A stretch of 64,000 bases of DNA from Collybia mongolica (Eukaryota > Basidiomycota > Agaricomycetes > Agaricales > Clitocybaceae): NCBI GenBank assembly GCA_013420905.1, contig JAAXNY010000013.1:496001-560000 (forward strand), read 5' to 3'. Positions 7,043 to 60,790 of the stretch are shown in pieces. The position numbers and the translations under genes were made by a program. Positions within the stretch are counted from its first letter, which is position 1; every line of letters starts with the position of its first letter. Under the pieces are notes generated by a model that saw only the letters and a list, made by a program, of their open reading frames with translations, ran no database searches and was not told the origin of the DNA.

Positions 7043-9954
7043 CACTGTGCACCTGGTGGGGGAGGTTTTTCCCCCACTTAATGGATGAAAGCAGCATTTC
7101 CTAAGTTTAGTGGATGAATCTAAAGGGTATGAAATTGGGATGAAATTTCATCCCAGATATTTCATCCCTTGAGAGGATGAATTTCTGCTCTTATAATTTC
7201 AGAAATTTTCATCCCTTAGTGGTGTGAACTTTCATCCCTTTAGAGGTGAATTATATGGGACAATTTTAATCTAGTGAAAAAGAGGGGAATTTCATCCTAT
7301 AATGGGTGGGTTTTATTAGATCATTTCAATCTATTAGAGAGTGAACTTTCATCCCATAAAAGGTGGAATATGTGGGATGATTTAGTATGTACTTGAGTCT
7401 AAATTGTATTCAATATTAAGTACTTATAATGTACTGACTACATTTGTATAGAACTACTACATACTAGAAAATGACATTTACTTACCAAATTTATGAGGAG
7501 GCTGGGGAAGGGGCCAGGAGGCTGGGCAGAAGTAGCAGTGGGCAATGGTTGTGGTACAAGAGCAAGTGCATCTGCATCTGTCTTTGGTGTCTGTGTCTGC
7601 GTCTGTGTCAATGTTGGTGCCCATGCCAATGTCTGTGTCTGTGTCAGTGTCTGCATTGGTGTCTGCATGCGTGTCTGTGGCGGCGTCTGCATGCATGTTG
7701 ATGTCCATGTCCATGTCTGTGTCTGTGTTGGCATCTGCACCTGCATTGGCATGCATGTCTGTGGTGGCGTCTGCGTGTGTGTTGATGTCCATGTCCGTGT
7801 CCATGTCTACATTGGTGTCCATCATCAGCATCTGCACCTGCATCTGCCTGCGTGTCTGTGGCAGCGTCTGCGTCTATGTCAATGTCAGTGTCCATGCATC
7901 AGCATCATTGTCTCCATCCATCTTTGGCATCTGTGTCTGTTGTCTGTGCCTGTGTCTGTGTCCCTTGTCTGTGTCCTTCAGCATCTGTCCTCTGCATCCA
8001 TTGCATGTCTCGGGTTCCTGAGGCTTTCCTGGGGAGGTTGTGCTGTGTAGTGAGTGCATGTGTGAGTAGAAGTTTGCAACGACTCACCTCCCTCTGCCCC
8101 TCAGGACACCCTTTCCTTGTCATCCCCTCGTTCCACGTCCTTGTCCACCCTTTGCCCCACTCCCCTAGGTGTGCGTGCCCTCATCACCATGTTGTGTGTC
8201 ATTGTTTGCCTTTCATGTGTCTCTGGGAGCTTCTGGTGCTTGGGGGGCCATGCATTTGGTTTTGGTGTTTGCACATTGACATTGGGCGGTTTGGTGGGCA
8301 TTGCTGATGTGGTTGAAGATCATCAACAAAGGTATGGCAACAGTTATATGACCTGGTCACATGCTTTGTAACCATGTGACCATGTTTGTAGACTTGGGAC
8401 TACTTGTCCCCTCACTAAGAATGCCAGTCTTGCCCAGTGGTTATCCATGCCAAAGGTATTAGTATTACATAATGATCCTCCCTGTGACTGTTTGAACCTG
8501 GTGGGTCCACATTTTTCAGCCTCCTATTAATAATGAATAGTATACAATTTGAATAAATAAATAAAAAATATTTGTCAGTGTCCTCAGATTTGATCACATG
8601 GCTTTGTTGACTGAGATGCCCGATGGCTGAACATTCCGAGCTATATTATGTGTTGGCAGCCACTTTCACATGCTTTCCCTCTTGCTCTCGTACCACCACC
8701 ATTGCCTGTTGCTGCCTCCCATCCTCCCCCTTGTAGTAAGCACTCTTCATTGATAGATTACAATTAGTATAATGTTAGATTACAATTACTATAGTAATAC
8801 TTGTAGTAGTCATTTGATTTCCAATACAAACTATAAGGCTTCATTAAGAATATTAATAAATGCTAATAATGATCCTACGGGAAACCGAAGGACATAATTA
8901 GTATGCAGGATAAAACCATGCCTGACAATGTCCTCAACATGGTACACCACTTTGTTGACCTCAAAGTGCAGGTGAACAATGAGGGGGTCTCAGTATGTCC
9001 ACATTAACATTAACCCATTTTACAGATGACTTCATTACAACAAGGTCAACAAAGACAATGAGCAGTCTGGCAGTGTACAAAGACCAACAACTTCCATCCA
9101 TTACTTAACTTTCTTTTATCCCCACCACGCCAACCTGACCAGCCAAACTCACCACCTTATGTAAAATTGCTCATGCTAAAGAAAAAGTAGGGAGTCCTAT
9201 TCCATGCCCACTGTGCAGCATTGCTGGAAATGGGTTCTGTCTCCAGGTGCAGCTTCAGGATGACAAGGATTTATATAGGGCAATTTGGGTAAGTTTTCTC
9301 ATTACTAACCTCAATACATGATTCTAACAAATCACAGTGTTGCATTTGCAGTCTGGTTGGTAATGCTGGTGATCAGGAACTTTGGAATGAGGGATATGAA
9401 TCAGAGGTATACTAGTTGATAGAGCATTCAAATTACAATACCTTAGATCTTATGGATGTTAAACCTTAACTGTACAAAATGAACAAAGTGTGTTTATTGA
9501 TAACAGGGAAGAAATAATGAATTCAAATTTAAGTGACGTAAATGGCATGGAATTAATCCCCACAAAGGCTATTATTCTCACCTGTGATGGTATGAAATCC
9601 ATCCCTACAAAGGCTATTATTTTCACCTATCATGGTATGAAATTCATCCCATAGCCTCAAAAATTTGCAGTAATGTTACCCCAAAAAACATTGCTATTCT
9701 CACCCATCAAGGTAGTAGATTAATCCCATATTGATAGGAATTACCTCCCACAATGGTTGTTTTTTCCACCTATGGTGAAATGAAATTCATCCCATAGCCT
9801 TGAGAATCAGGGGGTATGAATACAGACAAATTTTGCATGAAATTCATCCACAGGATTGTTAAGTGAATGAATTTCATCTTTTTAATGTATTATTTCTATT
9901 ATTTAAGAGGATGAAACACAGGGTTGAATTTCATCTATTCTCAGTTTCACAGTG
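7043..9954. mobile_element. CACTA-like (EnSpm/CMC) DNA transposon, non-autonomous
   Basis: The left end reads CACTGTGCACCTG and the right end is the inverse complement CACTGTGAAACTG, about 11 of 13 matching. A 3-bp duplication, CGA, flanks it (7040-7042 and 9955-9957). CACTA/CACTG ends with 2-3 bp target duplications are the hallmark of the CMC superfamily. Many subterminal copies of a GAATTTCATCCC-type motif occur in the first ~350 bp (7139-7355) and the last ~370 bp (9590-9935), a typical CACTA arrangement. The interior has no recognisable transposase, but includes a TGTCTG-rich simple repeat and a more GC-rich block near 7.5-8.4 kb. It is 2,912 bp long and most of it is AT-rich. Confidence 0.7.
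7555..7990 (+). repeat. TGTCTG-type degenerate microsatellite
   Basis: About 430 bp made of imperfect 6-bp units (TGTCTG, TGTCCA, TGTCAA, TGCATC). It lies inside the CACTA-like element. All six frames stay open over parts of it, which produces spurious Cys/Val-rich or Asp/Thr-rich frames. I do not annotate these as proteins. Confidence 0.85.
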
Positions 9955-32182: not shown

Positions 32183-34883
32183 ATGGTTAGAACTGAGTGA
32201 GACAGGCGTGTTTCGAGAGTTTGAGTTTTGAATTTTGAGGGCTCAAGGTGCCCCGTGTTCACGATCATAGTGTGGAAGGACCATGTAACAGCAACTAGCG
32301 AAGCAGCACCTGATGGTGGAATAGCTGTCTAGGTTGAAAATGGTCAAGAAAACGGCAATCGGGGTGGCTGGTTGAATCGCGTGTCGCGTGCGAACATCGT
32401 AATTTGTGAGGCTAACTGTGTTTACGCTAGTCCGATTGCGTTTTAGCCACTGGCACAACCACATTGTACTTGTCAACAAGCAGCTCTCTTCCATCGTCCT
32501 CCCACAAGGAGAAGGAATTGTCAGGATGTAAGCCATGACTAAAACTCAACGCGATAATCTTACCTCACGTTCAATCAATTAGGTCTTCGAGCGGAGATTC
32601 CGATAACATTGCCCTGTCCGACTTAGAAAGTGACCAGGAGGGTTCGCCTCAACAACTATGGAGAGGATCGGTGTCTCCTGTGGAGAGCTTTAACTCAGAT
32701 GGCGCAGATGAAGATGGAAACTGGGTAGTACAGATTATTGGAGAGGAGGTTGACATGTTGGGTCAGCTCAGGTACGCTTGTACATTATTTGCATTGCAGA
32801 GCTATGACAACGCTTGGGCTCTCCTAGGTACGAGGTATGCCCATATGATTGATACCCATCTTCCGGAATATGCTTCATCTCTAATTCTAGGCGCGCTGGC
32901 AAGACTGGTCTCGTGAAGATGGCAGCAATATTACTTGGAACAATGATTATATAGACCCTGAAGACATTCGTCCTTGGACCAAGGCGCAGAAGAAACGGAG
33001 GGCTGGGCTTGCGGTTGAATCCTTCGATATTGAGATCTGGGGGACAACGGACATAGTCAACACTGCTACCCGACTACGTGCCCAGGCTTACGAAGAAAAG
33101 CTTGCAAACCGGCGACGGAAACCCCTACCTAGCCTTAAATGGAAGATGGATAAGCTACTTGCTGAAAAGGAAGGTGAAGGAGAGGAGGTCGGGCCAACTC
33201 TCCGGGCTACACCTGCACGAAGGGAGCAAACACGACGCGCTATGTCGATCGCGGAATCGGTCGCATCAACACACTCCTCTGTTACCCTGCGATCTGGAAG
33301 TGTCTCGACTCTCTCGTCAACGTCCACGGTCTTCGGGACACCACCAAGTTCTGCCAAGTTCAATGAAGGGGAGAACGCGTCAACATACAAATCACATGCA
33401 GCTGTTCGTGAATCACGTGAGGCTTCATCAGGACCTTCGCGTGCTCAACCCGTACGAACACCGCGAAAAATATCTAAGTAAGAGGAAGTAGAACTTCACT
33501 TTCAAATTTCGAGACTTACTACAACCCTCAGACGCGACGAACTACAACGCAACTGGACTCAGGCTGCAAGGAGGTCTCGTGCGGCTGATATCACGATACT
33601 TAATGATGTTGACGATGAGCTGCTTCCGCCGCTGGTCCCAAATTTTGAATACCTCGAATCTGAATTCAAGTAGTAAGGGTTTTATTCCTTTCCCATCATC
33701 TGCATGCAACTAATGGGACGACGATATATCAGCTCATCTGGCATCCCCACTCCTGATGACACTGAGCTGTTTGTGAGCTGCGACTGTGATGTTTGCTCGT
33801 CAGCAGCGATATGTAGCTGCCAGGAACCATCTGACTTATGGGATGCTGAAGGAAACAAAACATTTGCATACACTCCTGAGGTGAGGACCAGTGATGTAAT
33901 TATTCTATTTGGCTCAGGATTTACAAACCAAGGGTTTGTTTGCATTCAATGTTTCTACAGGCATTGAAGTCATAGAGTGCAACAATGTGAGTGCTGGAGA
34001 GCAACTCAAAGCAACATCTTACCTGGTCATTTAAGCTTTGTAAATGTAACTTCAACACATGCCCTAACCGGGTTGCACAACGACCCCGTGATGTTCCCAT
34101 TGAGATATTTAAAACAGTGAATTGTGGATGGGGTGTTCGTGCACCTGTACGAATTCAACAAGGAAAAGTACTTGGTTTATATACAGGGTATTTTCTTGTT
34201 CACCACTCCTGGCAACAGCATACTGATGGAATACTCCAGGCTGCTGATGTATGATCATTCTGACACAATTGATATACATCTCTGACTCAAATTTGAATAG
34301 CCACAGAACAGTTGCTGATGCTCTGGAGGGTGATGATAGGGCATTTATATTTGACCTTGATGGTCAGGAAGACCCTGATTCAGAAACTCCTGAAGGTTTA
34401 GATGCATATAGTGTGGATTCTAGAAGATATGGTATAACTGATTTTCTTTGGATTGTCATCTCATCTGACCTATGTGTGCAGGGAACTGGACACGTTTTCT
34501 CAAGTAAGTGGTCAACATTTGTTACATGTATTGAGAGGCAAACAGTTGGATTACTTCAATGAAACTCTAGCCATTCATGCTCTCCCAACATACAGGTGTA
34601 TACTGTTGTCTTTGATACAATCCCTGAGGTAATTATTTTCATCAACCTGAAGCTTGTTCTTCAATTTGAACACTATCTTTCACTTACTGCTCAGAGAAAC
34701 ACACCTTATGTTGCATTTGTTGCACTTTGTGATATTCCTCCTGGCACAGAATTGACTTTTGACTATGACCCAGCAGCTGGGAAAGCATCAAAAAAGAAAG
34801 GTAAAGGGAAGGGCAAAATCACAATTCCTGAAGGAGCCAAGCTGTGTATGTGTGGGACAGAAATGTGTCGTGGTTGGATATGA
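32183..34883 (+). CDS. chromodomain + SET histone H3K9 methyltransferase (Clr4/SUV39 type)
   Basis: Thirteen exons give 571 aa: 32183-32196, 32583-32771, 32828-32834, 32891-33477, 33532-33672, 33733-33880, 33918-33986, 34036-34187, 34240-34248, 34301-34431, 34482-34503, 34571-34628 and 34695-34883. Chromodomain: NWVVQIIGEEVDMLGQL, RYEARWQDWS, SNITW. A Ser-rich linker follows. Pre-SET cysteines: SCDCDVCSSAAICSC, VIECNN joined to LCKCNFNTCPNRV. SET: IFKTVNCGWGVRAP, GKVLGLYTG, RAFIFDLDG, NWTRFLN joined to HSCSPN, ELTFDYD. Post-SET: CMCGTEMCRGW. This full set defines the heterochromatin H3K9 methyltransferases. The first exon (14 nt) and its 386-nt intron are the least certain part; no ATG precedes the chromodomain otherwise. 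Exons 3 and 9 are micro-exons of 7 and 9 nt. Confidence 0.9.
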
Positions 34884-36352: not shown

Positions 36353-36358
36353 TATAAA
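36353..36358 (+). promoter_or_regulatory. TATA box of the peptide precursor gene
   Basis: TATAAA lies 50 bp upstream of the ATG at 36408. Position and sequence suit a strong, regulated promoter with a short leader, as is common for small secreted fungal proteins. Confidence 0.5.
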
Positions 36359-36407
36359 ACCTACCCGGAAAATGTTACGTGCCCTGCACTAATTCCCCAC
36401 TTCCAAG

Positions 36408-36967
36408 ATGCGTCTCCCAAGCCTTTTTCTCGTTGCCGCCTCCATGATCGTGCTCTCCAGCGCGAACTACGCTGTAAGTTCTCAATGTATTTGCTCTTTG
36501 TATCTACGGCCCTAATGATGGTTGTTTGGGTTGGTTTTCAGGCTCATGGTCAGATTGCACGCAGTGTCGAAGAGGGGCATGAGGCCCCAGGAGTGGTGGG
36601 TTTTTAAGTTGGATTACTCGGCCCAACAGTTTATTGATCGATCACTTCCTCAACATAGAATGCCCCTGCTTGGAAGAGAGAGGCAAAACCACCTGGCTGG
36701 AAACGAGTCGCCGAGGCCGCACCCGAACCAACACCTCTTAATTGGAAACGTGTTGCAGAGGCAGCACCGACTCCCCCTAACTGGAAGCGCGAAGCTGAGG
36801 CAAAGCCTCCCAATTGGAAACGCGAAGCTGAAGCAAAACCTCCCAACTGGAAGCGCGAAGCTGAGGCGAAACCTCCTAATTGGAAGCGAGAGGCTGAGGC
36901 AGCCCCTGCGCCTACTCCTCCCAACTGGAAGCGTATGGAGAAGAAAAGAGGAACTCCTAACTGGTAG
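36408..36967 (+). CDS. secreted Kex2-processed repeat peptide precursor (alpha-factor-like)
   Basis: Exons 36408-36473, 36542-36595 and 36659-36967 give 142 aa. Residues 1-22 form a signal peptide (MRLPSLFLVAASMIVLSSANYA). A short pro-segment follows, then nine short units that each end in Trp, eight of them followed by Lys-Arg: NAPAW, KPPGW, a PLNW unit, two TPPNW units, KPPNW three times, and a final GTPNW at the stop. Spacers are EA, EAEA or VAEA, so the repeat reads W-KR-EAEA-x. This is the layout of yeast alpha-factor precursor: Kex2 cuts after KR, a Ste13-type dipeptidyl peptidase removes x-Ala pairs, and a carboxypeptidase trims KR. Expected products are Pro-rich peptides of 5-9 residues with C-terminal Trp. 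Frame and both introns are supported by the repeat itself; the antisense frame is a shadow. Receptor and role unknown. Confidence 0.88.
36659..36950 (+). repeat. tandem repeat encoding KR-EAEA-KPPNW units
   Basis: Imperfect tandem array in the last exon of the precursor. The most regular part (about 36785-36900) has 33-nt units, each coding for EAEA-KPPNW-KR. Flanking units are longer or shorter through added Ala-Pro codons. Silent differences between the units show that they have been separate for some time. Confidence 0.85.
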
Positions 36968-37904: not shown

Positions 37905-40168
37905 ATGTCTTTCCAGACGTCGCCCGTTGCACTAGATGTGAGTTTCGTTCATTGTTCATCGCCGCTCAATCTCCCACTGAAATGCATTTAGAGGGTCGAG
38001 ACACACGTCTCGCACAAGGGCTTTAGTGTTCCTGATCCGTAGGTGCGAAATTTTCCACGCCGTCGGATTCTTATCGTCTGTTCGTGCACAGTTTTGCTCC
38101 CCGGCAAAGGCCTGGTGCTTCTTTTCTCAACGCATTAGCAGCGACCGCCCTTTTCCGCTGCTGGCACATTCTCCTCTTCTTTGCCGGATGGTCGACCCTC
38201 ATCACTATCCTGAACCACCAGGGCCACAAGCTGTTGATCCAACCCACACTGCTTACGGTGTAAACCCCATCGATATGTATTTCCCTCACTATTTCTAACT
38301 CTTGGGCTAGTATCGGTACCGTCATTGGCTTCGTAATATCCTACAGGACAACATCATCTTTTGAGAGATATAATGAAGGGAGACGGTTGTGGTCGCAGGT
38401 GATTTTGGCAAGCCGTACCTTTGCGAGGACAACTTGGTTTCATGTTCCAGGTATGAGCGTTCTATCTCCAACCACGTCCCTACAGGTCTGACGTGGCAGT
38501 GGTGTGGTTTCTAAGACCAGGAGGCGACGGAAAATGTGACGGCGGAGGAAATGGCGGCGCGGTCTATGATTGAGAAGAAATCGGTAATCAACCTCCTCGA
38601 GGCGTTTGCGGTCTCCATCAAGCATTACTTGAGAGGCGAGGACGGCATCTACTATCAGTGCGTCTTGTCTATTTCTTACCTTTGGCATTGTTAATTTGAT
38701 CTCTAGGGACCTGTATCATCTCGTTAAATTTCTCCCTGCATACGCGATGCCCGCTGGAATCCCACCTATGACCGACCATCCTGAGGCCACTACCTCGTTC
38801 AATTCAAACGCTGCCAGTCCCCGTGGCACCGATCCGCGGATCCCATCCTCTCCCGGACAAAGTTCATTCCTATATCAACGGACGTTCTCACCTGCTCCGG
38901 ATATCCTACCAGTGCCGGCCACGACACCGTCGCCGAGGAAACCCCAATTTGTGCGACCTACTCAAACTATTCTGGCACATGCAAGCCCTCGTGAAAAAGT
39001 CATACTCCAGAGGACCGATGAGGGTCTCCTCCTACCGGCCAGCATGCCCCCGAGATATCATATATTCGATTTGTTTCCGTTCTCGCTCCCGATCGAGTAC
39101 TTCACCAATAGAGGGAAAGAAATCAAAGGCAAAAAAGCTGCGAAGTTGAGGGCTAAAATGCGTCAGAAAGCTATCTCCCACAATCTCCCTTTGGAGATTT
39201 CACTCTATCTCGTATGTATCTAGAATGCGTGATACAAAGAGTCCCCTAATTAAATTTTGTGGCAGAGCTCATATGTCTCTGCCTTGCAGTACCGCAAACA
39301 AACCGATGTACCCACAATTAGTACAGCTTTACTCAAGGGCATGGAAAGAACATACTCAATCGTATTTTTGCAGATACTCTTCTCTTTTCATTGAACCAAC
39401 TCGTTGATTCATTGACAGGGTTAGAGCGAATCCTCACGACACCAATTCCATTTTCGTACGCGATTTATTAATCCTTGTTCCCTGGTTACCAACTTATCAT
39501 CTCTCGGTAGATATTCGATTCATCTCTGGGTTGTCACCATCGTCTATTGTCTGGCTCTGGTACTTTATGAGTGTGTTATTTTGGGATTGATACTGACGGG
39601 TCATACCAGCCCTTCCAGATTTGGGTCGCATTGGGCTGGGTAACGATTCCTGGAACGATAATAGCCGTATGTGTTTCTTTTCAAGCCGTGATCCATAGCT
39701 GACGGGCAAATCCGAACCAGTCGTTCATCTTCTTTGGTTTCCTGGTAGCTGGAGAGGAAATCGAGAGTGAACCTTCCCTCTATCTGCTTATATATCTTGT
39801 GGCACTGATACGAATACTAGACCCGTTCGGTTACGACAAAAACGACCTTGTAAGTCACTGTGCTATCTTGGATTGCCTCCACACAGTTTGACAAGCACTC
39901 CATAGAATCTTGACCATTTTACGAACAACATTATCCGTAAGCCGGTGACAGGATTGATGCTACCATTATCTCAAGTGTAGGATCTATAGGTAATGAGCTG
40001 AGGGCCATCACCTCCGCGCCCCCTCCTGATCCAGCCCGATGGGCTTTTGCCCCAGAAAATGATCTTATTTTCAGCCACAACATCGACGGTGAACGTTTCA
40101 CTCCCGATGAGTGGATGAAGAAAGGCCATATTCAAATGCAAAAAACAATGAGTATCATTCAGGTTTAA
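37905..40168 (+). CDS. bestrophin-like (UPF0187) anion channel
   Basis: Fourteen exons: 37905-37937, 37992-38038, 38092-38259, 38311-38450, 38516-38657, 38707-39211, 39266-39320, 39374-39455, 39511-39559, 39610-39666, 39721-39766, 39821-39849, 39906-39936 and 39990-40168, giving 520 aa. Family signatures: ALFRCWHILLFFAGWST, QPTLLTVIGTVIGFVISYR, TTSSFERYNEGRRLWSQVI, LASRTFARTTWFHVP, SVINLLEAFAVSIKHYLRGE, LPLEISLYL, LNQLVDSLTGLERILTTPIP, PFQIWVALGWVTIPGTIIAS, FIFFGFLVAGEEIENPFGYD and LNLDHFTNNIIRNELRAIT. The long loop in exon 6 is Pro/Ser-rich. It is an integral membrane protein, probably passing anions; the compartment cannot be read from sequence. All exon phases agree. The first two exons rest on splice logic only. 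Confidence 0.9.
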
Positions 40169-40480: not shown

Positions 40481-43021
40481 ATGCGCCTTGGCTTCCTTCC
40501 ACAAGCACTTATCAGAGCTACCTCTCCTTATCACAGGACCCCTTTCATTCAGCGCCGTAACATGGCATCCACCGTCAACAAAATCGCCCATCCGTTTGAC
40601 AAAGTCCAATTTGAAGCTCTGCTGAACCGGAGATTTTTCTACGCACCTGCATTTGAGATCTATGGCGGTACGTCTATCGGAATGGCATAGAATCACTTTC
40701 TTTGCTCACGATTTAGACATCGGATTACAGGCGTCGCTGGATTATACGACTATGGCCCACCGGGCTCATCGCTCCAGGCCAATATCATCGCGGAATGGCG
40801 GAAACACTTCATCATTGAGGAACATATGCTCGAACTCGATACGACAGTTATGACTCCATCCTCCGTGTTCGAGACTTCCGGCCACGTCGCAAGGTTTGCG
40901 GACTGGATGGTGAAGGACACCAAAACTGGAGACGTCCTCCGTGCCGACCATCTCGTCAAGAACGTGCTCGAGGCACGTCTGGCAGGCGATAGGGAGGCGA
41001 GAGGCATCGCTGCTGCACCTCCCTCCGCAGATGACAAGAAAAAGAAGAAGAAGAGCGCAAAGGCGGTTGCTGTGAAATTGGAAGATGAGGTGGTTAAGGA
41101 GTACGAGGTCATCTTGGCTCAGGTGAGTGATTCATAGATTGCCTGTCGGACACAATTTGAGAGGATCCCGTTAGCTGGACAATTATACCGGTGCAGACCT
41201 CGGTGAGCTATGCCGCAAACATACCCTCAGAAATCCCGATACCGACAACGAGGTTGGTGAGCCTCAACTATTCAATCTCATGTTCGCCAGTAGCATTGGC
41301 CCAACAGGCCAACATCCAGGGTAAGAGCCATACTTATATCTCTATTATCTGCGTTGCCGACCATCAAACCAGCTACCTCCGTCCCGAAACTGCCCAAGGC
41401 CACTTCCTCAACTTCTCCCGACTACTCGAATTTAACAACGGCCGCATCCCGTTCGCATCTGCTCAGATCGGTCGCTCCTTCCGCAATGAAATTTCACCCC
41501 GCGCTGGACTCCTTCGCGTGCGAGAATTCACCATGGCCGAAATCGAGCATTTTGTCGACCCCAACGACAAGTCGCACGAACGCTTCTCTGAAGTCCGCGA
41601 TGTTACTCTCGCTCTCCTCAATAGACACGTGCAAGAAGCTGGCAGCAGCCAAATAACGCACATGAGCGTTGGCGAAGCCGTGGACAAAGGTATTATTGCG
41701 AACGAAACGCTGGGGTACTTCGTAGCACGGATATCTCAGTTCTTAATCAAGATCGGTATCAATCCAGAGCGGCTAAGATTCAGGCAGCATATGGGTAATG
41801 AGATGGCCCATTATGCCACGGACTGCTGGGACGCTGAGATCCATAACTCTACTGGGTGGACGGAGTGTGTCGGGTGTGCTGACCGGGCAGCATATGACTT
41901 GAGCGTACACACGCAGAAGACTGGACACCCCCTTGTTGTGCGTCAGGCCCTGAAGGAGCCCATCGTTACAGAGAAAGAGGTCGCAGAATGGAACAAGAAA
42001 AACTTAGGCAAGACATATAAGCAGGATGCCGGCGTTTTGCAGAAGATCGTCGAAGCTATGGAGGAATCCGAGTTACTGAGGCTGAAGAGCGAGCTTGCTC
42101 AAGGGTATGTGCGATTTGGTTCCACCTTCGGAGCTGCTGATTCACGTCAACGTTCAGCTCAACCATGGTCAAGATTGATGGTAGAGAAATCCAGCTAACA
42201 CCCGAAGTTCTTGCCATTGAACGAAAAACGTTCAAGCAATCCAGTATGCATGCTGAACTATGTATATCTCCATATCTAACCCTACCCCTCAGTTCGCGAA
42301 TACACTCCCAACGTCATCGAACCATCGTTCGGCCTTGGTCGGATTCTCTACACGCTCCTAGAACACAGCTTTTGGAGCAGGGAACAAGATGTTGAACGTG
42401 GTGTGAGCCTCTCAGTTGTCCTTTTTCCCGTCGTGTGGCTTATCGTGATCGAATCATAGGTTTTGTCACTACCTCCCGTCGTTGCTCCCACCAAAGTTCT
42501 TATCGTTCCTTTGAGTGCAAGGGATGAATTTGCACCCCTTGTGCAGGAAGTTTGTGAGTGCTTTAAATCTTGCAGAACTCTCCACTGTCTCAACTGATTA
42601 TACCGCCTCTACAGCCTCAAAACTGCGCAGAGCTGGCGTCTTCTCCCGTGTCGATGACTCGAACACGTCAATCGGCAAACGGTATTCTCGCAACGATGAA
42701 TTGGGCACGCCATTTGGTATCACCGTGGATTTTGCCTGTATGTGATTTCTTCCTGACATCTTCAGGACCTATTGACATACGTTGTTACTATTAGCTGTTC
42801 AAAACCGTACAATGACTCTTCGGTAAACTCGGTTTCCTGTCTCGGAAAGATAATCCACTAATTTATGAACAACTCTCAGTGAACGTGACACGACAGACCA
42901 AAGGATTGGCTTTGTTGACGAGGTCATCGCCACAGTTACAGATCTCGTTTTCGGCAATATCACATGGGACGAAGCCTGTGTACGGCTGCCGAAATATGAT
43001 GGTATACAGGCCGTCGAGTAG
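40481..43021 (+). CDS. GRS1: glycyl-tRNA synthetase, probable cytosolic and mitochondrial forms
   Basis: Ten exons: 40481-40667, 40731-41122, 41175-41320, 41373-42104, 42158-42243, 42293-42402, 42460-42553, 42615-42737, 42795-42822 and 42880-43021. They give 679 aa from the first ATG and 652 aa from the ATG at 40562. Class II features: [40 protein letters not shown], motif 2 [38 protein letters not shown], motif 3 [17 protein letters not shown], and the anticodon-binding domain ending GIQAVE. The 27 residues between the two ATGs ([19 protein letters not shown] and on) are basic, Ser/Arg-rich and free of acidic residues, like a mitochondrial targeting peptide. One gene could thus serve both compartments, as in yeast, where GRS1 uses a non-AUG upstream start. 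A lysine-rich insert ([10 protein letters not shown]) sits in the usual eukaryotic insertion. Confidence 0.95.
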
Positions 43022-45982: not shown

Positions 45983-48900
45983 ATGTTGTTGGGGGACTTT
46001 ATTCGATTTCTGGAATCCCTGTGGGACAGGCTGTGGAAGAGGAAGGTTGTGTCGTGAGTCTCGATCCCTGATTAAGAGTTCTTAATAAAATGGAATTGAT
46101 GACTTTGCCCATCAGGATTGAATCGAGTTCGTTGCTGCCTTGGGGCACGTGGGACCTAGATCCAGCCTTTTTCGCATCTCTTTCTCGCTGGACTCTCGAC
46201 CACCCGGAAAGCAGTTTAGATCGGGTTCTGGACAGGATATGTGGCGGCATTGACAGGGGAGTTGTAAACCACTGCTCGGTCTAATTCCAGACAGTCCTTT
46301 TCCCGCACGTGGGCTGCTTGGAGCATTGGCCCATCTCATAAAGCTTGGCGCGGTCGGTAGTCCTACTCGTATCCATGCTCAGGGCACCCAAGGAACTGAC
46401 GCCCCGCTGCACAACTCAGACCGTGACTAAAGCTCAGAAAGATGTTCAGCAGTTTGCTAAAGAAGTCATTCACTGGGTGGGCATGGTGAAAGCAACGATC
46501 GAGCGCGGAAAGCTAGGTCGCTTTTCATCCAAAATGGAGGAAAGCTTGGCAGAAAGAAAGTGTGTTTTGATATCGTTATGCTTTTTGATCTATTACTTTT
46601 GCTGATCATTATCATGCCATTTTTCCAAAACCTAGGGCATTAATCGACGAAATATGCAAATGGGCAAGCGCGAGGCTGGTATATATTATTCTTTCCTCAG
46701 AGCCCATGTTATGGCTTCTCAATGACTCTGTGAGATAGGAAGATAAGCGATGGTCGCGCTTGGAAAATGGGTTAACAATTGAGAAGGAAATTGGGGACTT
46801 CAAAATGCGACTAGTGGCGGCTAGAGGTGTTTTTCTGGTATGTAACATTAACTTCTACATTACCTAACACCCTGAAACTGTAACCTAGGATGTTGCCATG
46901 ATTAACCTTGCGCAAGGTCAAGACCATATTTCCCAAAACCAAGATACCATTCTTCAGAATATTCGTGATCTTATCACGATGTGCGTTAACGTTTTTACTT
47001 ACTCCCTCGTCTTGAACGTTTGTTTAGATACCCATCCTTGATGCCATAAACGAGCAAAAGCAGGCCGAAACTAGACGCCAATTCCTTTCTCACATCCTCG
47101 CAACACGCGCTGTGGCTAACACTGCTTACGATGTTCAAGGCAAACGCCCGTGTGACCCAGATACTCGCGTTGAGATTCTAAAGAGTGCCAAAGAGTGGGT
47201 ATATGATATCTCAGAAGGTGCCAAGAGCTTCCTTTGGCTGACTGGGGATCCTGGCTGTGGGAAGTCAGCGATCACCGCATCTTTAGCACGATTGTGCAAA
47301 GACGATGGAATTCTTTGGGCGCAATTCTTTGTCAACCGCAACTTTGGTGGTACTACAAACCCAGCATCATATTTCCCTTCAATTGCCCGCCAGCTCGCTG
47401 ATCATTCTCCAGTGGTTGCGCTAGCCATCCATTATGCACTGAAATTACAGCCCTCTTTGATGGATGACATATCTCAGCTTCAGGCAGGAAAGTTGTTTGT
47501 TGACGCGCTCAAGGTCGCATCAACGACCGAGCCTTATAGGCCCGTGGTCGTTATATTAAACTCTTGGGAGTTAGGCCACCTATTATCTCTAACCGAGAAT
47601 TAGTTACCAAGTTCTTGGGATGTCTTAACAAAACGATGAGCTGATTTATTTTCTATAGTTGCCAAACACAGCTAACGGCCAATCAGCGATGCCCCCGATG
47701 AACAGATACTGAGCAGATCCCTCACGGCTGAATTTCACAGCTCAAATTTTTTCCAAGGCAGTAATGGATCTCCCTAGTAATATTAAGATCTTCATCGCTA
47801 GCAGAACCGAAGATGATATTCGTAAACCGTTCACTACCACGTTCGACGTCGACCAAGTCAAACACGTCCATCTGGACACAGGTTCCCCATCTTCTATCGA
47901 AGACGTCAATAAATTTCTCGTGAAGAAGATACTCGAGATTGTTGAAAAACACGGCTTGGAGCTAAATAAATGGCCTGGAGAGGAACGAATGCATGCTTTA
48001 TGCAATCGTGCCGCAGGACTTTTCATGTGGGCTGTTACAGCGACGAAATTCATACAAGATCAAGTCGATATGTCAGGTCGCGAATATCTTGACTTTGTGC
48101 TAAATGAGCTCAGCACCAAAGGAATGGGTGATATCAATACCCTGTATGGGACGATTCTTCGTTTAACCCATAAAAACGCGGATGCCTGGGCATTGGAGAG
48201 GTTAAGAAGAATTGCGGGATGTGTTTCTGTCCTGCAGGAACCGTTGGGGCTCGGCGATATCGCATCTTTACTGGACCTTCAAAATCCTTCATACCACACC
48301 CCAGTCGATCTCGAACACTTTGTACGCCGAATGCGCACAGTACTAGTTGCTGGTGCAGATCCTATCGATGCCAAAACGATTCCTCGCCTTCATAAATCAT
48401 TTTTCGAATTCATCACTGAGCGAGCTGAAGAGCAGTTTCTCGTGAAACTGGATGCATCAAACGGAGAGTTAGCAGTGGCGTGCCTTCGTCATCCTGCAAA
48501 TCTAAATGCACAACCAGCTTCCATGGTGGAATTTGATATTCCCGTCGCTCTTCATAAAGAAGGAGAGGCACCGAAAAAAGGGATGAGGAATCCATTGAGC
48601 CCGCGTAGGCGACCAAGCACTAAAGAAGAAAGCGGAATTAATCCTGAAGCTCCTTAAACGGACCCCATTCCACGTCGGTTGACAACCCTCACTCGCTATG
48701 CATATAGATTCTGGAATGCACACCTTCCTGGAGCTGAAGAACAGATGGCGGGTCTGGCTATATTCCAACCATCTAGCCTGCCCGACATTCTGGACAAGTT
48801 CCGCAGAGTCTCAGACCACGATCTTCCCCAGCTATCTATGACTACTATTGATCCCATACCTGATAAGAAGCAAATTATATTCCCTTTCGAAAATAACATT

Positions 48901-50461
48901 CATCTTTGGGCCGACGACGGCACACATCTCACATATCCCATCAGTGGACACTCCGTGAAGGTTTCTTCTGTTACTTTCTCTCCTAACGGGAAATATATCT
49001 TGTCAGGCTCGTATGACGGGACTGTTCGCATGTGGGATGTCCACAATGGTCAGGCTATCGGGTCACCACTCCTGGGTCACGCTGGGTCTAAACCAGTACT
49101 GGCGGTCGCATTCTCACCAGATGGCCAATATTTTGTCTCCGGCTCAGCAGATAGTACTCTTCAACGCTGGAAAACGGACGGTGCTGTTCGTTTTGGATCG
49201 CTACTGGGGGGCCACTCAGGAGAAGTGATGTGCACAGTGTTCTCCCCGGATAGTAAACAAATAGCGTCTTCACCGAATGATGGGACTATTCGTCTCTGGG
49301 ACGTAGTGTCAGGACAACACGCTGGCTCACCGATCAGGATTCCAGGAGCTTCTAAAGGTCCCCTCCCCATAGTGTACTCCCAAGATGGTCGACAAATCAT
49401 TGTTGGTTCCGCTAACAACTCAATTCTACGATGGGATATACAAAGTGAGAAGAGGATTGGAGAGCCCATAGAGGGTCACACGGGACGAGTATCGGTTTTG
49501 TCATTGACGCCTGATGGAAGACAGATTGTTTCAGGTTCATACGATATGACTATTCGTCACTGGGACGTCCAGAGCGGTAGATCTATCAGACAAGTACTCA
49601 GAAGTTCTGACAATATGGTCGTGGGCATTGCACTTACGCCGGATGGGGGCCAGGTAATATCGGGCAGCGCAAATGGAAGAATCCGTTTCTGGAATGCTCA
49701 AACTTCGGAGCCCGTTATGTGGGCCTACGAAGGCCGCGCAAAGTCAATGACATCTCTTGATCTGTCACGCGATGGGAGGCAAATAGTAGTTGGTTCGGAT
49801 GATGGTCTGATAAGTCTCTGGGATGTTCCAAGTGGCCGTCCGTTCACATTTCCCATCCAAAGCCGCAACAAACCTGTGACCTGTATCGCTCTCTCGCAGG
49901 ACGGTAGGATGATCGCCTCTGTTTCTTTGGATAGGACTATTCGTACCTGGGATGCGCTCACGGGAAACGTTATTGGATTGAAGATAGATACTAAAGCCGG
50001 TGCTCCAGCGTCCCTTGCTTTCTTTAGAGATGCTAGCAAATTAGTGGCGACATACTCAAACGGGACCGTCCATGTATGGTCTATTCCGAGCGGCGAACAG
50101 CTCTCTGAGGTTTACAAAGACCACATTAACGCTTCATCGTCGATTGCTTTTTCATCCGACGGCGTTAACCTGGTGTCATTCAATCTAGATGGAACCAGCC
50201 ATATTGAACGCAATCAATGGACAGCCCGTAGAGGATCGACCTTCAGCTTCTGTAAAGTTTTTTGAAGAAAGCGAATTCTGGTCTTTTGGTGCAGATAGAG
50301 TATGGTGTAAAGGGGGAGAAGACGTAGCGCAGACTCAGCTGCGGTGGTACCCAGCGACAAATTCAGATCGTGGGGTCTGGGGATACGTCAATGGAGTGGT
50401 GGTAAGAAAGGAGAAAAGTGGATTCACGTCTGTATTCGACATGCGTCCGGCTTTGCGATAA
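45983..50461 (+). pseudogene. NACHT-WD40 NLR-type protein, disrupted
   Basis: Signal-transducing STAND ATPase of the fungal NLR type. A helical N-terminal region begins near ATG 45983 (LLGDFIRFLESLWDRLW) and includes DVQQFAKEVIHWVGMVKATI, GRFSSKMEESLAE and VAMINLAQGQDHISQNQDTI. NACHT (47.1-48.5 kb): P-loop WLTGDPGCGKSAITASLA, then NIKIFIASRTEDD, FMWAVTATKFIQ, LRRIAGCVSVLQEPLGLGDI and RLHKSFFEFIT. About ten WD40 repeats follow (48.9-50.2 kb), e.g. FSPNGKYILSGSYDGTVRMW. Four defects: a 132-bp block with a stop splits Walker B (47556-47687); 13 extra bases (47730-47742) shift the frame; an in-frame TAA at 48655-48657 precedes TRYAYRFWNAHL; and the frame shifts near 50195 before the C-terminal KFFEESEFWSFGADRV. 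I found no introns that remove these. A minority of the calls could be rescued by unusual splicing. Confidence 0.75.
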
Positions 50462-56363: not shown

Positions 56364-57359
56364 ATGTCGTTCCCTAACGCGAGTTGCCTTGCCTTCCACA
56401 ATAACACGTTCAACGATGTTCAAGGGAACCTTTACAACAACTCACTCAGCGACCAGCCAGGGGAACAGGGTGAGTTTCCCCAACTCACAGCGGACGTCGC
56501 ATCCTGATTGCGCGCTCCAGGATTCCGTGAACTGTCGAGCAAGGTGTATCCAAGAACTGCATATAATACACATAGCCATCTTCCAGTAGCTCCTCACTGT
56601 CAAACTACCCGGGACCTGGTTCTTACAGAGGTGTTCGACTGGATTGATAGCGAGACAGCCAATATATGCTGGCTTTATGGAGCCCCCAACACAGGGAAGT
56701 CGACCATTGCGCAGGCCACGGCAGAGCAATGCTCAGAGCGCGGAACAAAGCTCGGAGCCAGTTTCTACGCTCAACGTTCACATCCTCACAGTGCTTCGAC
56801 ACACCTCATCCCTAGCATTGCGTACCAACTTGGGGTTTCTCTTCCAGGGATGCGAATCGCGATTGGCGAGGCCGTGGAGCGTGACGTGACGATCCTACAT
56901 AAGCCGCTTGAAGACCAGATACAGGAGTTGATCGTCAAGCCGTTTTCCGCGGCGTTCCCTTCCAATGATCATGATGGATCGAGGACCCCGGGGAAGTCGA
57001 TCCTCATCATAATCGACGGACTTGATCAGTGCTTCGATTCCTACTACCAGCTCTATATACCTCGCTTTCTCCATGCCATCGCCAGTACCAAAAACATCCC
57101 TACCAGGTGGCTGATCACAAGCCAACGTACGTATCAAATACGACGATCCTTCGATGCCATCTCTAGTTATGTTCACTCTATATCTCTCAGCACCATCGAC
57201 CGACGCGTTGAGGTAGAGCACGGCATCTCTACATACGTCTACCTGCGTCATAGGCTCAACGAGATCTATGAGGATTATCCCACTGTGATGGGGATTCTTG
57301 TGCGGGCTGTCCAGGTGGGATTGTTCATCACTATTATCACATTATTGGGAGGCATTTAG
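56364..57359 (+). CDS. short NACHT-domain protein (truncated NLR)
   Basis: Two exons, 56364-56469 and 56521-57359, give 314 aa. The N-terminus has the FNDVQGNLYNNS-type linker seen before NACHT domains in Agaricomycetes. Then come FDWIDSETANICWLYGAPNTGKSTIAQ (P-loop GAPNTGKST), FYAQRSH, LIPSIAYQL, Walker B KSILIIIDGLDQC and PTRWLITSQRTY. It stops soon after the nucleotide-binding core with LVRAVQVGLFITIITLLGG, with no winged-helix region or repeat domain. Either a remnant of a full NLR or a stand-alone NACHT protein. It is only distantly similar to the NLR at 46-50 kb, so it is not a simple tandem copy. Confidence 0.75.
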
Positions 57360-59240: not shown

Positions 59241-60536
59241 CTAGGTAGTGGTCGCGACGCCCCGCCTCTCCATTTCAAGCTGCGCCCGGAGTTGTCGAAT
59301 TTCTTCTTCTGCTCTCTTTGTCTCCTCTGCACGGAGGCGCTTCTCCATATCCGCTCTCTCTGTCGCCTCTACACGGAGGCGCTTGTGCATATCCGCTCTC
59401 TCTGTCGCCTCTACACGGAGGCGCTTGTGCATATCCGCTCTCTCTGTCTCCCTTTCCGCTCTCTCTGTCGCCTCTACACGGAGGCGCTTGTGCATATCCG
59501 CCCTCTCTGTCTCCCTTTCCGCTCTCTCTGTCGCCTCTACACGGAGGCGCTTCTCCATTTCGATTTCTCTCTCCCTCGTAATCAAAGTATAAGCCTACAA
59601 CTTGGTAAGAATGGTAGAAATAATGATAGAACAAAGGCATACTTTTTTTTTGAATATCTTCTGTTGTTTCCCATACAACTCCTCAAGCTCCTTGAGATAC
59701 TTTTCTCTGGCCTCGTGTATAGGAATTCCATACCACTTGCTGGTACTTGAGGGGTTGTAGTGTCCTTCTTCTACTTTCCATAACTCCTCCTCCATCACAG
59801 CATTCAGTGATTTCCGCTTCGAACCAGCGTCGCATTTAGCAAGGACACGTACAATGACATCGGCAAACCAATGACATTGGCTTGAATAAAGTTCATATTC
59901 TGGGTTGTTGACATGCAAAGTGTAGGCGACAATGATAAGATCATGAATAGTGGTATTCTTGAATGACATCTCCTCGATGATTGTGATTTTCTCCTTCGCC
60001 CCAGCAGCCCGTGCGCCAAACATTCCTTTTTGAGCAGCTGGCCAACGAGGAATTTGTGTAACCCAGCCACGAACCGCCGGCCATTCCCTCAAGGAATGTG
60101 AACTGGAAGATGTGGAGGTTGGGCTTGGAGAGGCGGGCGTCGTGGCGGGAAAGCGTCGGGGGGAATCGGTGTCACAATCAGGGCATGAGAATGGGGCAAA
60201 ATGTATAAACTTTGATGTTCTCGACCTTTCCAGCCGTAGATATGCATGCGGGCCGCCTTTTGGAATGACTTCTGCTACGAGGTACTCATGCTGGGAGAAT
60301 GATGATGATGACTCCTTGTATCTCCTGATTCTGTGCACGGGCAGCGATTTGGGGTCATCGTAGCGCTCTCGGACAACAGGGTCCGCCGCGCAAAGCGTCC
60401 CGACGAGGTTGTACCAACTGACAACATCTCCGGTGGATATCTCGCACCGGTCTGGTTGTGTCGCCATTCCTAGTACCGAGAGGATGGGGTGAAATGCTGC
60501 AGATAGTGTAGAGGAGAGCCAGTGAATGAGTGACAT
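59241..60536 (-). CDS. hypothetical protein: possible LRAT/NlpC-like core with repetitive coiled-coil tail
   Basis: Two exons, 60536-59643 and 59594-59241, give 415 aa. The N-terminus MSLIHWLSSTLSAAFHPILS is hydrophobic. The middle contains HEYLVAEVIPKGGPHAYLRL, a Ser/Pro linker, and TTIHDLIIVAYTLHVNNPEY followed by ELYSSQCHWFADVIVRVL. The last block resembles the 'Y-x-L-x(3)-N-C-x-x-F' catalytic-Cys motif of LRAT-type NlpC/P60 proteins, with Gln for Asn, and a His lies upstream in the order expected for a permuted fold (inference). The tail is a strongly charged coiled coil built from ADMHKRLRVEATERAERETE units. Similar proteins are expanded in Agaricomycetes as far as I recall; function unknown. 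A decayed copy lies downstream. Confidence 0.7.
59325..59565. repeat. 42/66-bp minisatellite coding for coiled-coil repeats
   Basis: Five near-identical units within exon 2 of the gene at 59241-60536. The basic 42-bp unit contains ACACGGAGGCGCTTGTGCAT. Two units carry an extra 24 bp, giving 66 bp. All lengths are multiples of three, so copy-number change keeps the frame and only lengthens the coiled coil by 14 or 22 residues. The near identity suggests recent expansion. Confidence 0.85.
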
Positions 60537-60790
60537 CTTGGCCTGAAGAGGGTAAAATGACTACGCAGAGAGGTTCAGGGATAGAGGTGAAGGATGCATG
60601 CCCATTTATAATTACCGGTTGGTGCGTTCAAATACATCTGCATCAAACCTCATAAACAAAAAAAACACGACCCTCACCGATTACACGTGTCCGGCTTTCA
60701 AAGTGCATCCGAATCCAAGAGGTCTTCCGATCCCGGACATCAAGAGGTGTCAGATCTTCCGATCCTGGACATCATAGCCGAGGCCCCCTC
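60537..60790. other. upstream region with short repeats
   Basis: Holds a TATA-like TTATAAT-type sequence about 70 bp upstream of the minus-strand gene at 60536. It also holds a short direct repeat with core CTTCCGATCC(C/T)GGACATCA (near 60724 and 60756) and ends in a run of 15 C residues (60790-60804). Confidence 0.5.
60741..60773 (+). repeat. short inverted repeat, left arm
   Basis: About 32 bp that match the reverse complement of 61417-61448 with one difference (CGATCC versus CAATCC). It lies next to the poly-C run where base composition turns AT-rich, so it may mark the edge of an insertion. Confidence 0.75.

Follow-up and report, generated by a model that had tools for sequence, protein, structure and literature searches.

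A candidate Kex2-processed precursor of short Trp-ended peptides in the basidiomycete Collybia mongolica

Results

Gene model and repeat units of the putative precursor

The window, i.e., the whole 64,000-nucleotide stretch of Collybia mongolica DNA that was analyzed, lies on contig C13 (JAAXNY010000013.1) of a 46.0-Mb genome of 26 contigs, and all genome-wide searches cover this assembly. Positions 36408–36967 of the plus strand hold an apparently genuine gene for a secreted protein, which would be cut, by the route of the yeast mating factor, into many tiny peptides ending in P-x-W. The predicted product comprises 142 residues with nine Lys-Arg (KR) sites and is encoded by three exons, separated by two phase-0 GT-AG introns. 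Exon 1 (36408–36473, 66 nt) encodes a signal-peptide-like start of 22 residues, MRLPSLFLVAASMIVLSSANYA, with a hydropathy peak of 2.89 over 11 residues, which by hydropathy only agrees with the N-terminal signal peptide expected of a Kex2-processed repeat protein (KEP). Predicted intron 1 (36474–36541, 68 nt, GTAAGT..CAG) is followed by exon 2 (36542–36595, 54 nt), which encodes an 18-residue propeptide, and predicted intron 2 (36596–36658, 63 nt, GTGGGT..TAG) by exon 3 (36659–36967), which carries the repeat region and the stop codon. Intron 2 needs to be spliced because the unspliced frame hits a stop after three codons. The exon model and the signal peptide were derived from DNA sequence and hydropathy alone. 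By pattern only, a possible TATA box (TATAAAA, 36353–36359, plus strand) is located 55 nt upstream of the ATG. The Pfam search of the 142-residue precursor returned no family up to an E value of 10, and hence neither MF_alpha nor MF_alpha_N. There was no match to the precursor in the PDB, and scans for bacterial-type promoters and terminators, Rfam families, and tRNAs gave nothing relevant.

Exon 3 encodes nine units that end with Trp. Unit 2 is EA-KPPGW (36680–36700), unit 3 is VAEAAPEP-TPLNW (36707–36745), and unit 4 is VAEAAP-TPPNW (36752–36784). They are followed by three units of EAEA-KPPNW (units 5–7, at 36791–36817, 36824–36850, and 36857–36883) and by unit 8, EAEAAPAP-TPPNW (36890–36928). 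The sequence-only reading of this locus had described nine Trp-ended units joined by KR. The number of units is correct, but the two terminal units are set differently: unit 1 (NAPAW, 36659–36673) closes the propeptide and is only followed, not preceded, by KR, and unit 9 (GTPNW, 36950–36964), the C-terminus of the protein, is preceded by MEK-KR (36935–36949). With nine KR sites, three identical KPPNW cores, and close variants of this core, the protein shows the similar peptides between KR, RR, or KK sites that define KEPs.

A 33-nt tandem array was detected by TRF at 36782–36901 (plus strand). When this array was compared with itself at period 33, 12 mismatches were found, and all 12 were synonymous changes at codon position 3 (29 sites per codon position; binomial p 1.9e-6, in units that were duplicated from one another, where neither these counts nor those of the spacers are independent events). 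The spacers, defined as everything from KR to the last five residues and counted for the eight units that follow KR, are 2, 8, 6, 4, 4, 4, 8, and 0 residues long in units 2–9, i.e., all of even length. Ala or Pro occupies the second place in 18/18 spacer dipeptides and the first place in only 4/18, which is the XA/XP signature of Ste13 substrates. This register was matched by 3 of 200,000 within-spacer shuffles. When each distinct spacer was counted once, Ala or Pro was at the second place in 14/14 dipeptides, and this was matched by 50 of 200,000 shuffles. Even spacers with Ala or Pro at the second place give the register that trimming by a Ste13-type dipeptidyl aminopeptidase requires. The view that the precursor gene is real is borne out by the three-exon model with its 142-residue product, the purely synonymous array differences, and the dipeptide register.

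Neighborhood of the gene

The precursor gene lies between an upstream SET-domain gene (SET at 34563–34880; a Pre-SET match at 33677–33964 was below its cut-off) and a downstream bestrophin-like gene (38264–38488), followed by a piece of a class II tRNA synthetase (41161–42195). No receptor, UstYa, or peptide-modifying enzyme was detected in the window when 21 of the 30 listed ORFs of at least 150 residues and 8 shorter pieces were searched against Pfam; the list omits ORFs largely covered by longer ones, and such an ORF-wise search can miss spliced genes. Genome-wide profile searches also placed no STE2, STE3, or UstYa match on contig C13, which agrees with the earlier statement that neither a receptor nor a modifying enzyme is adjacent to the gene.

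The array at 59307–59561, whose translation contains KR, was considered as a KEP and rejected, as it is a charged repeat that ends a minus-strand gene, and no signal-peptide-like start was seen in frame. This gene (59241–60560, minus strand) consists of a 321-residue frame without Pfam match and a highly charged MHKRLRVEATERAD-like repeat with periods of 42 and 63 nt, which is perhaps a coiled coil. Elsewhere in the window, an NPHP3_N (NACHT-like) ATPase piece is followed by a long WD40 array (47028–50262, plus strand), and a second NPHP3_N piece is located at 56508–57356 (plus strand). We take these pieces to be NLR-like, as in fungal self/non-self recognition. Two further tandem repeats were observed: a GTGTCT-rich repeat of 84 nt (7587–7808) inside the ORF 7475–8047, and a 45-nt repeat (9542–9650) of 2.4 copies with 85% match.

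A second Trp-ended precursor in the genome

The KR version of a tandem Trp pattern gave 41 matches in the genome versus 35 in the reversed control. Seven matches at C13:532671–532933 and two at C16:1336597–1336940 were kept, and the other 32 were dropped as chance. The RR version (431 matches versus 380 in the reversed control) was at chance level and was dropped entirely. A stricter tandem pattern, P-x-W-[K/R]R, gave 11 matches versus none in the reversed control. Five of them belong to the window gene on C13 and two fall on C16. The four at other places were rejected as chance: one is out of frame, two have no dibasic site, and the one at C1:750034 is in frame but unrepeated. All these patterns required a dibasic site after Trp and could therefore overlook KEPs whose cores are different or whose sites are RR.

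The matches on C16 belong to another Trp-ended KEP of this genome that is unlinked to the first (minus strand, C16:1337148 to 1336426); it has 148 residues and the cores GAPGW and AAPPW. Its gene model has six phase-0 exons of 66, 15, 93, 81, 93, and 99 nt, separated by introns of 54–56 nt, and its exons coincide with its repeat modules. Both precursor genes begin with a 66-nt first exon that ends at a phase-0 intron, followed by a short exon and then by the repeats. The second residue before Trp is Pro at 8/9 Trp residues of the window gene and at 12/12 of the C16 gene (20/21 together). The C16 gene has no EAEA-type spacers, several of its KR-bounded pieces exceed five residues, and its match to the window precursor is weak at the sequence level (E 0.17). 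The common layout and motif suggest that the two precursors may be homologous, which falls short of proof.

Processing enzymes and predicted products

Two P-domain matches ~3 kb apart on contig C9 were found by a profile search of the genome and represent Kex2-like loci. In one of them, the only locus scanned for this arrangement, Peptidase_S8 and the P-domain are in a single frame. The same search found one dipeptidyl-peptidase gene on contig C8, with DPPIV_N and Peptidase_S9 pieces. Upstream of these pieces, an acidic tail and a transmembrane stretch (19-residue hydropathy of 2.98) were read in separate frames. If joined to the pieces, they would match the type II layout of Ste13. Domain content, rather than activity, establishes that Kex2-like and Ste13-like genes coexist in this genome. 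The alpha-factor-like processing grammar that had been read from the repeats is thus supported by the KR sites, the even spacers in Ala/Pro register, and both of these genes.

The following processing steps are likely. The precursor would enter the secretory pathway, where Kex2 would cleave behind Lys-Arg, and a Kex1-type carboxypeptidase would take off Lys-Arg and bare the C-terminal Trp. The dipeptides EA, VA, AP, and EP would be removed by a dipeptidyl aminopeptidase of the membrane-bound Ste13 type, and this trimming would halt at a core with Pro as the third residue, which the enzyme would be unable to cut, here termed the proline lock. DPP-IV is reported not to hydrolyze peptides with Pro at the third position (PMC11050885); the source of this rule is the literature on DPP-IV and not on fungal Ste13, to which we infer that it can be transferred. 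The third-position Pro may set the end of the mature peptides because the DPP-IV rule leaves most units as pentapeptides. When the rule was applied to the eight units that follow KR, six ended as [K/T]PP[N/G]W, one as GTPNW, and one as LNW.

The predicted main products are therefore the pentapeptides KPPNW (three copies), TPPNW (two copies), and KPPGW. GTPNW would be released from the C-terminus of the precursor. Unit 3 violates the rule, and its APEPTPLNW may be trimmed to LNW. Among the mature forms named by the sequence-only reading, KPPNW, KPPGW, and GTPNW agree with this prediction, whereas APTPPNW should be trimmed further to TPPNW. The proline lock is a specific and checkable prediction of the Ste13 stop point, e.g., on EAEAKPPNW and EAEAAPAPTPPNW.

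Receptors, transporters, and tailoring enzymes

STE3 gave 39 exon matches genome-wide, which we grouped into 12 loci. Six of these loci lie within 40 kb at C11:2501555–2541348, and the others on C1, C4, C11, and C15. Clustered STE3 genes are typical of the B mating locus of basidiomycetes. The C11 region is probably the B mating-type locus, with extra receptors elsewhere. No STE2 match was found in the genome by a search with no positive in its control set. According to a 2026 review, Ascomycota are the only fungi with class I (Ste2) receptors (PMC13308352). Both STE receptor searches fit the basidiomycete setting in which the peptides had been placed.

Oligopeptide transporters (OPT) gave 41 exon matches, about ten loci by our grouping; OPT genes are common in fungi. 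The UstYa search gave seven exon matches, which form three groups (C16:114339–119576, C5:941801–945502, and C9:160372–163929). These are possible RiPP clusters unrelated to the precursor gene.

Discussion

The window gene is a further member of a class that is already known in basidiomycetes, the Trp-ended KEPs with a Ste13 signature. Alpha-pheromone-like KEPs with this signature were described in Basidiomycota in 2019 by Le Marquer et al. (PMC6339444), and the processing of basidiomycete KEPs, with many relatives ending in C-terminal Trp, was demonstrated by mass spectrometry in 2022 by Vogt et al. (PMC9769878). The earlier proposal of a separate class is not supported. The additions made here are the core sequence, compared by printed cores only, the C16 precursor, and the prediction of a proline lock. 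Among the literature matches listed for PPNW-type strings, no title concerned a fungal peptide.

Like the basidiomycete KEPs 490115 (C. cinerea) and 1091723 (Pleurotus), the window precursor combines a putative signal peptide, dibasic sites, XA/XP dipeptides, and short linear Trp-ended cores. KEP 490115 was cut and Ste13-trimmed by Pichia to QMRPPSW and QYKAPSW (PMC9769878). Its endings, P-P-S-W and A-P-S-W, are near the P-P-N-W of the window gene when printed cores are compared without alignment, although the window cores differ, are mostly five residues long, and are bounded by KR, in contrast to the RR site named for 490115. KEP 1091723 yields SGVAADW; peptides of this -AADW type were found for Lentinula and Pleurotus, in mushrooms or their medium (PMC9769878), whereas the window cores mostly end with P-x-W. 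The P-x-W ending is shared with C. cinerea KEP 447393, whose peptide GPPAPSW was detected in native culture medium but, unlike the window cores, derives from a non-repetitive C-terminus (PMC9769878).

With ascomycete alpha-factor and alpha-pheromone precursors, the window gene shares the grammar of Kex2, Kex1, and Ste13 processing. It differs from them by the absence of any Pfam match and of Cys, and by its basidiomycete host, in which no Ste2 match was found. The alpha-pheromone-like KEP described for Trichosporon oleaginosus, also a basidiomycete, has a Ste13 signature and a core that ends with G-T-P-C-W, to be compared with G-T-P-N-W of the window gene, but this core is 14 residues long with two Cys (PMC6339444).

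Taken as a whole, the best explanation, which we consider reasonably probable, is that the gene encodes a KEP whose product is a non-mating secreted signal. As to function itself, such a signal is the most likely single reading of the peptides, though we hold it tentatively and at less than even odds. The linear peptides would carry signals among the hyphae of one fungus or to its neighbors. Instead of Ste2, their sensor would be an orphan receptor at the surface or an oligopeptide transporter that takes up the peptide, as for Cryptococcus Qsp1. Qsp1 is likewise a secreted, Trp-ended basidiomycete peptide, and it is described as a self-signal that is imported through an oligopeptide transporter (PMC7537855, PMC5959073). 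The likeness implies no demonstrated sequence kinship; unlike the window cores, Qsp1 has 11 residues, does not end with P-x-W, and is secreted as a pro-peptide that is matured extracellularly by Pqp1 (PMC7537855, PMC5959073). Hormone or effector roles were proposed for KEPs by Le Marquer et al. (PMC6339444). Six kep knockouts of C. cinerea, however, are reported without apparent phenotype, and the authors prefer a role toward other organisms (PMC9769878). We count this result against the self-signal reading. Also counted against the best explanation are the absence of STE2, STE3, and UstYa matches from contig C13, the departure of unit 3 from the proline lock, and the printed -AADW (PMC9769878) and XSDW (PMC6339444) cores of other basidiomycetes, which have an ending other than P-x-W.

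The same knockouts, silent in axenic culture, support the possibility that ranks close behind: after identical processing, the peptides could act on other organisms, i.e., a plant partner or host, bacteria, or rival fungi, as small effectors or antimicrobials. Vogt et al. prefer biotic interaction (PMC9769878), MiSSP8 of Laccaria is a repeat precursor with Kex2 sites that is needed for mycorrhization (cited in PMC7329392), and the paralogue with GAPGW cores would suggest diversification. On the other hand, the core of the array is invariant at the protein level, as for a recognized ligand rather than a fast-changing effector, although this is seen in one gene only. Pentapeptides without charge clusters or Cys are also poor candidates for membrane activity. 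An outward role is somewhat unlikely but not far behind the non-mating signal.

Far less probable is a dikaritin-type RiPP precursor with cores cyclized by UstYa oxidases. Precursors of dikaritins (ustiloxin, phomopsin, and asperipin) have the same architecture, a repeat precursor cut by Kex2, and the genome contains the seven UstYa exon matches noted above. None of the seven, however, is on contig C13, and where dikaritins have Tyr cores and UstYa genes nearby, no repeat unit of the window gene contains Tyr. We take DUF3328 to be the old name of UstYa. Umemura counted 1680 basidiomycete KEPs, 103 of which (6.1%) are near DUF3328 (UstYa-type) genes, and Tyr is the residue that was checked against neighboring DUF3328 genes (PMC7329392). 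Precursors of toxic cyclic tetrapeptides and of epichloecyclins are described as lacking the Ste13 signature (PMC6339444). Still, among the 76 KEPs with homology to the six putative alpha-type pheromones of basidiomycetes, 17 had a DUF3328 gene nearby (PMC7329392). This is at odds with any general rule that modification does not occur in Ste13-type KEPs.

A true mating pheromone, i.e., an alpha-factor orthologue read by Ste2, is just as improbable. The Kex2/Ste13 grammar is the same, and the P-x-W ending recalls the P-C-W ending that Sordariomycete alpha-pheromones can have (PMC6339444). Against this stand the 39 STE3 exon matches with none for STE2 (in a search whose control set lacked a positive), the statement that class I receptors are confined to Ascomycota (PMC13308352), the absence of MF_alpha in a precursor without any Pfam match, and the location of the precursor on C13 and of the STE3 cluster on C11. 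A role in structure or at the surface, as for Rep1 of Ustilago, a Kex2-processed basidiomycete precursor whose peptides form amyloid-like fibrils (PMC9769878), can practically be dismissed, as Rep1 is described without a Ste13 signature (PMC6339444) and products of five residues would hardly form fibrils.

A broader and quite speculative reading can also be formulated. Basidiomycetes would maintain secreted pentapeptides of one family, defined by a C-terminal pharmacophore, x-[P/A/T]-P-x-W, and protected from over-trimming by a built-in proline lock. The two unlinked precursors of this genome (KPPNW/TPPNW and GAPGW) would both belong to it. As the P-x-W tail is common to Sordariomycete alpha-pheromones, these pentapeptides would be descended from, or convergent with, alpha-pheromone after the loss of Ste2, and would serve a non-sexual purpose through another sensor.

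The KEP papers raise the question of why alpha-factor-like peptides are made by mushrooms, which do not use alpha-type pheromones for mating (PMC9769878, PMC6339444). With a second precursor in the same genome, redundancy might explain the silent kep knockouts. The window gene otherwise adds another example to a known class, but it is a very clean case, as the short synthetic peptides KPPNW, TPPNW, and KPPGW are easy to test.
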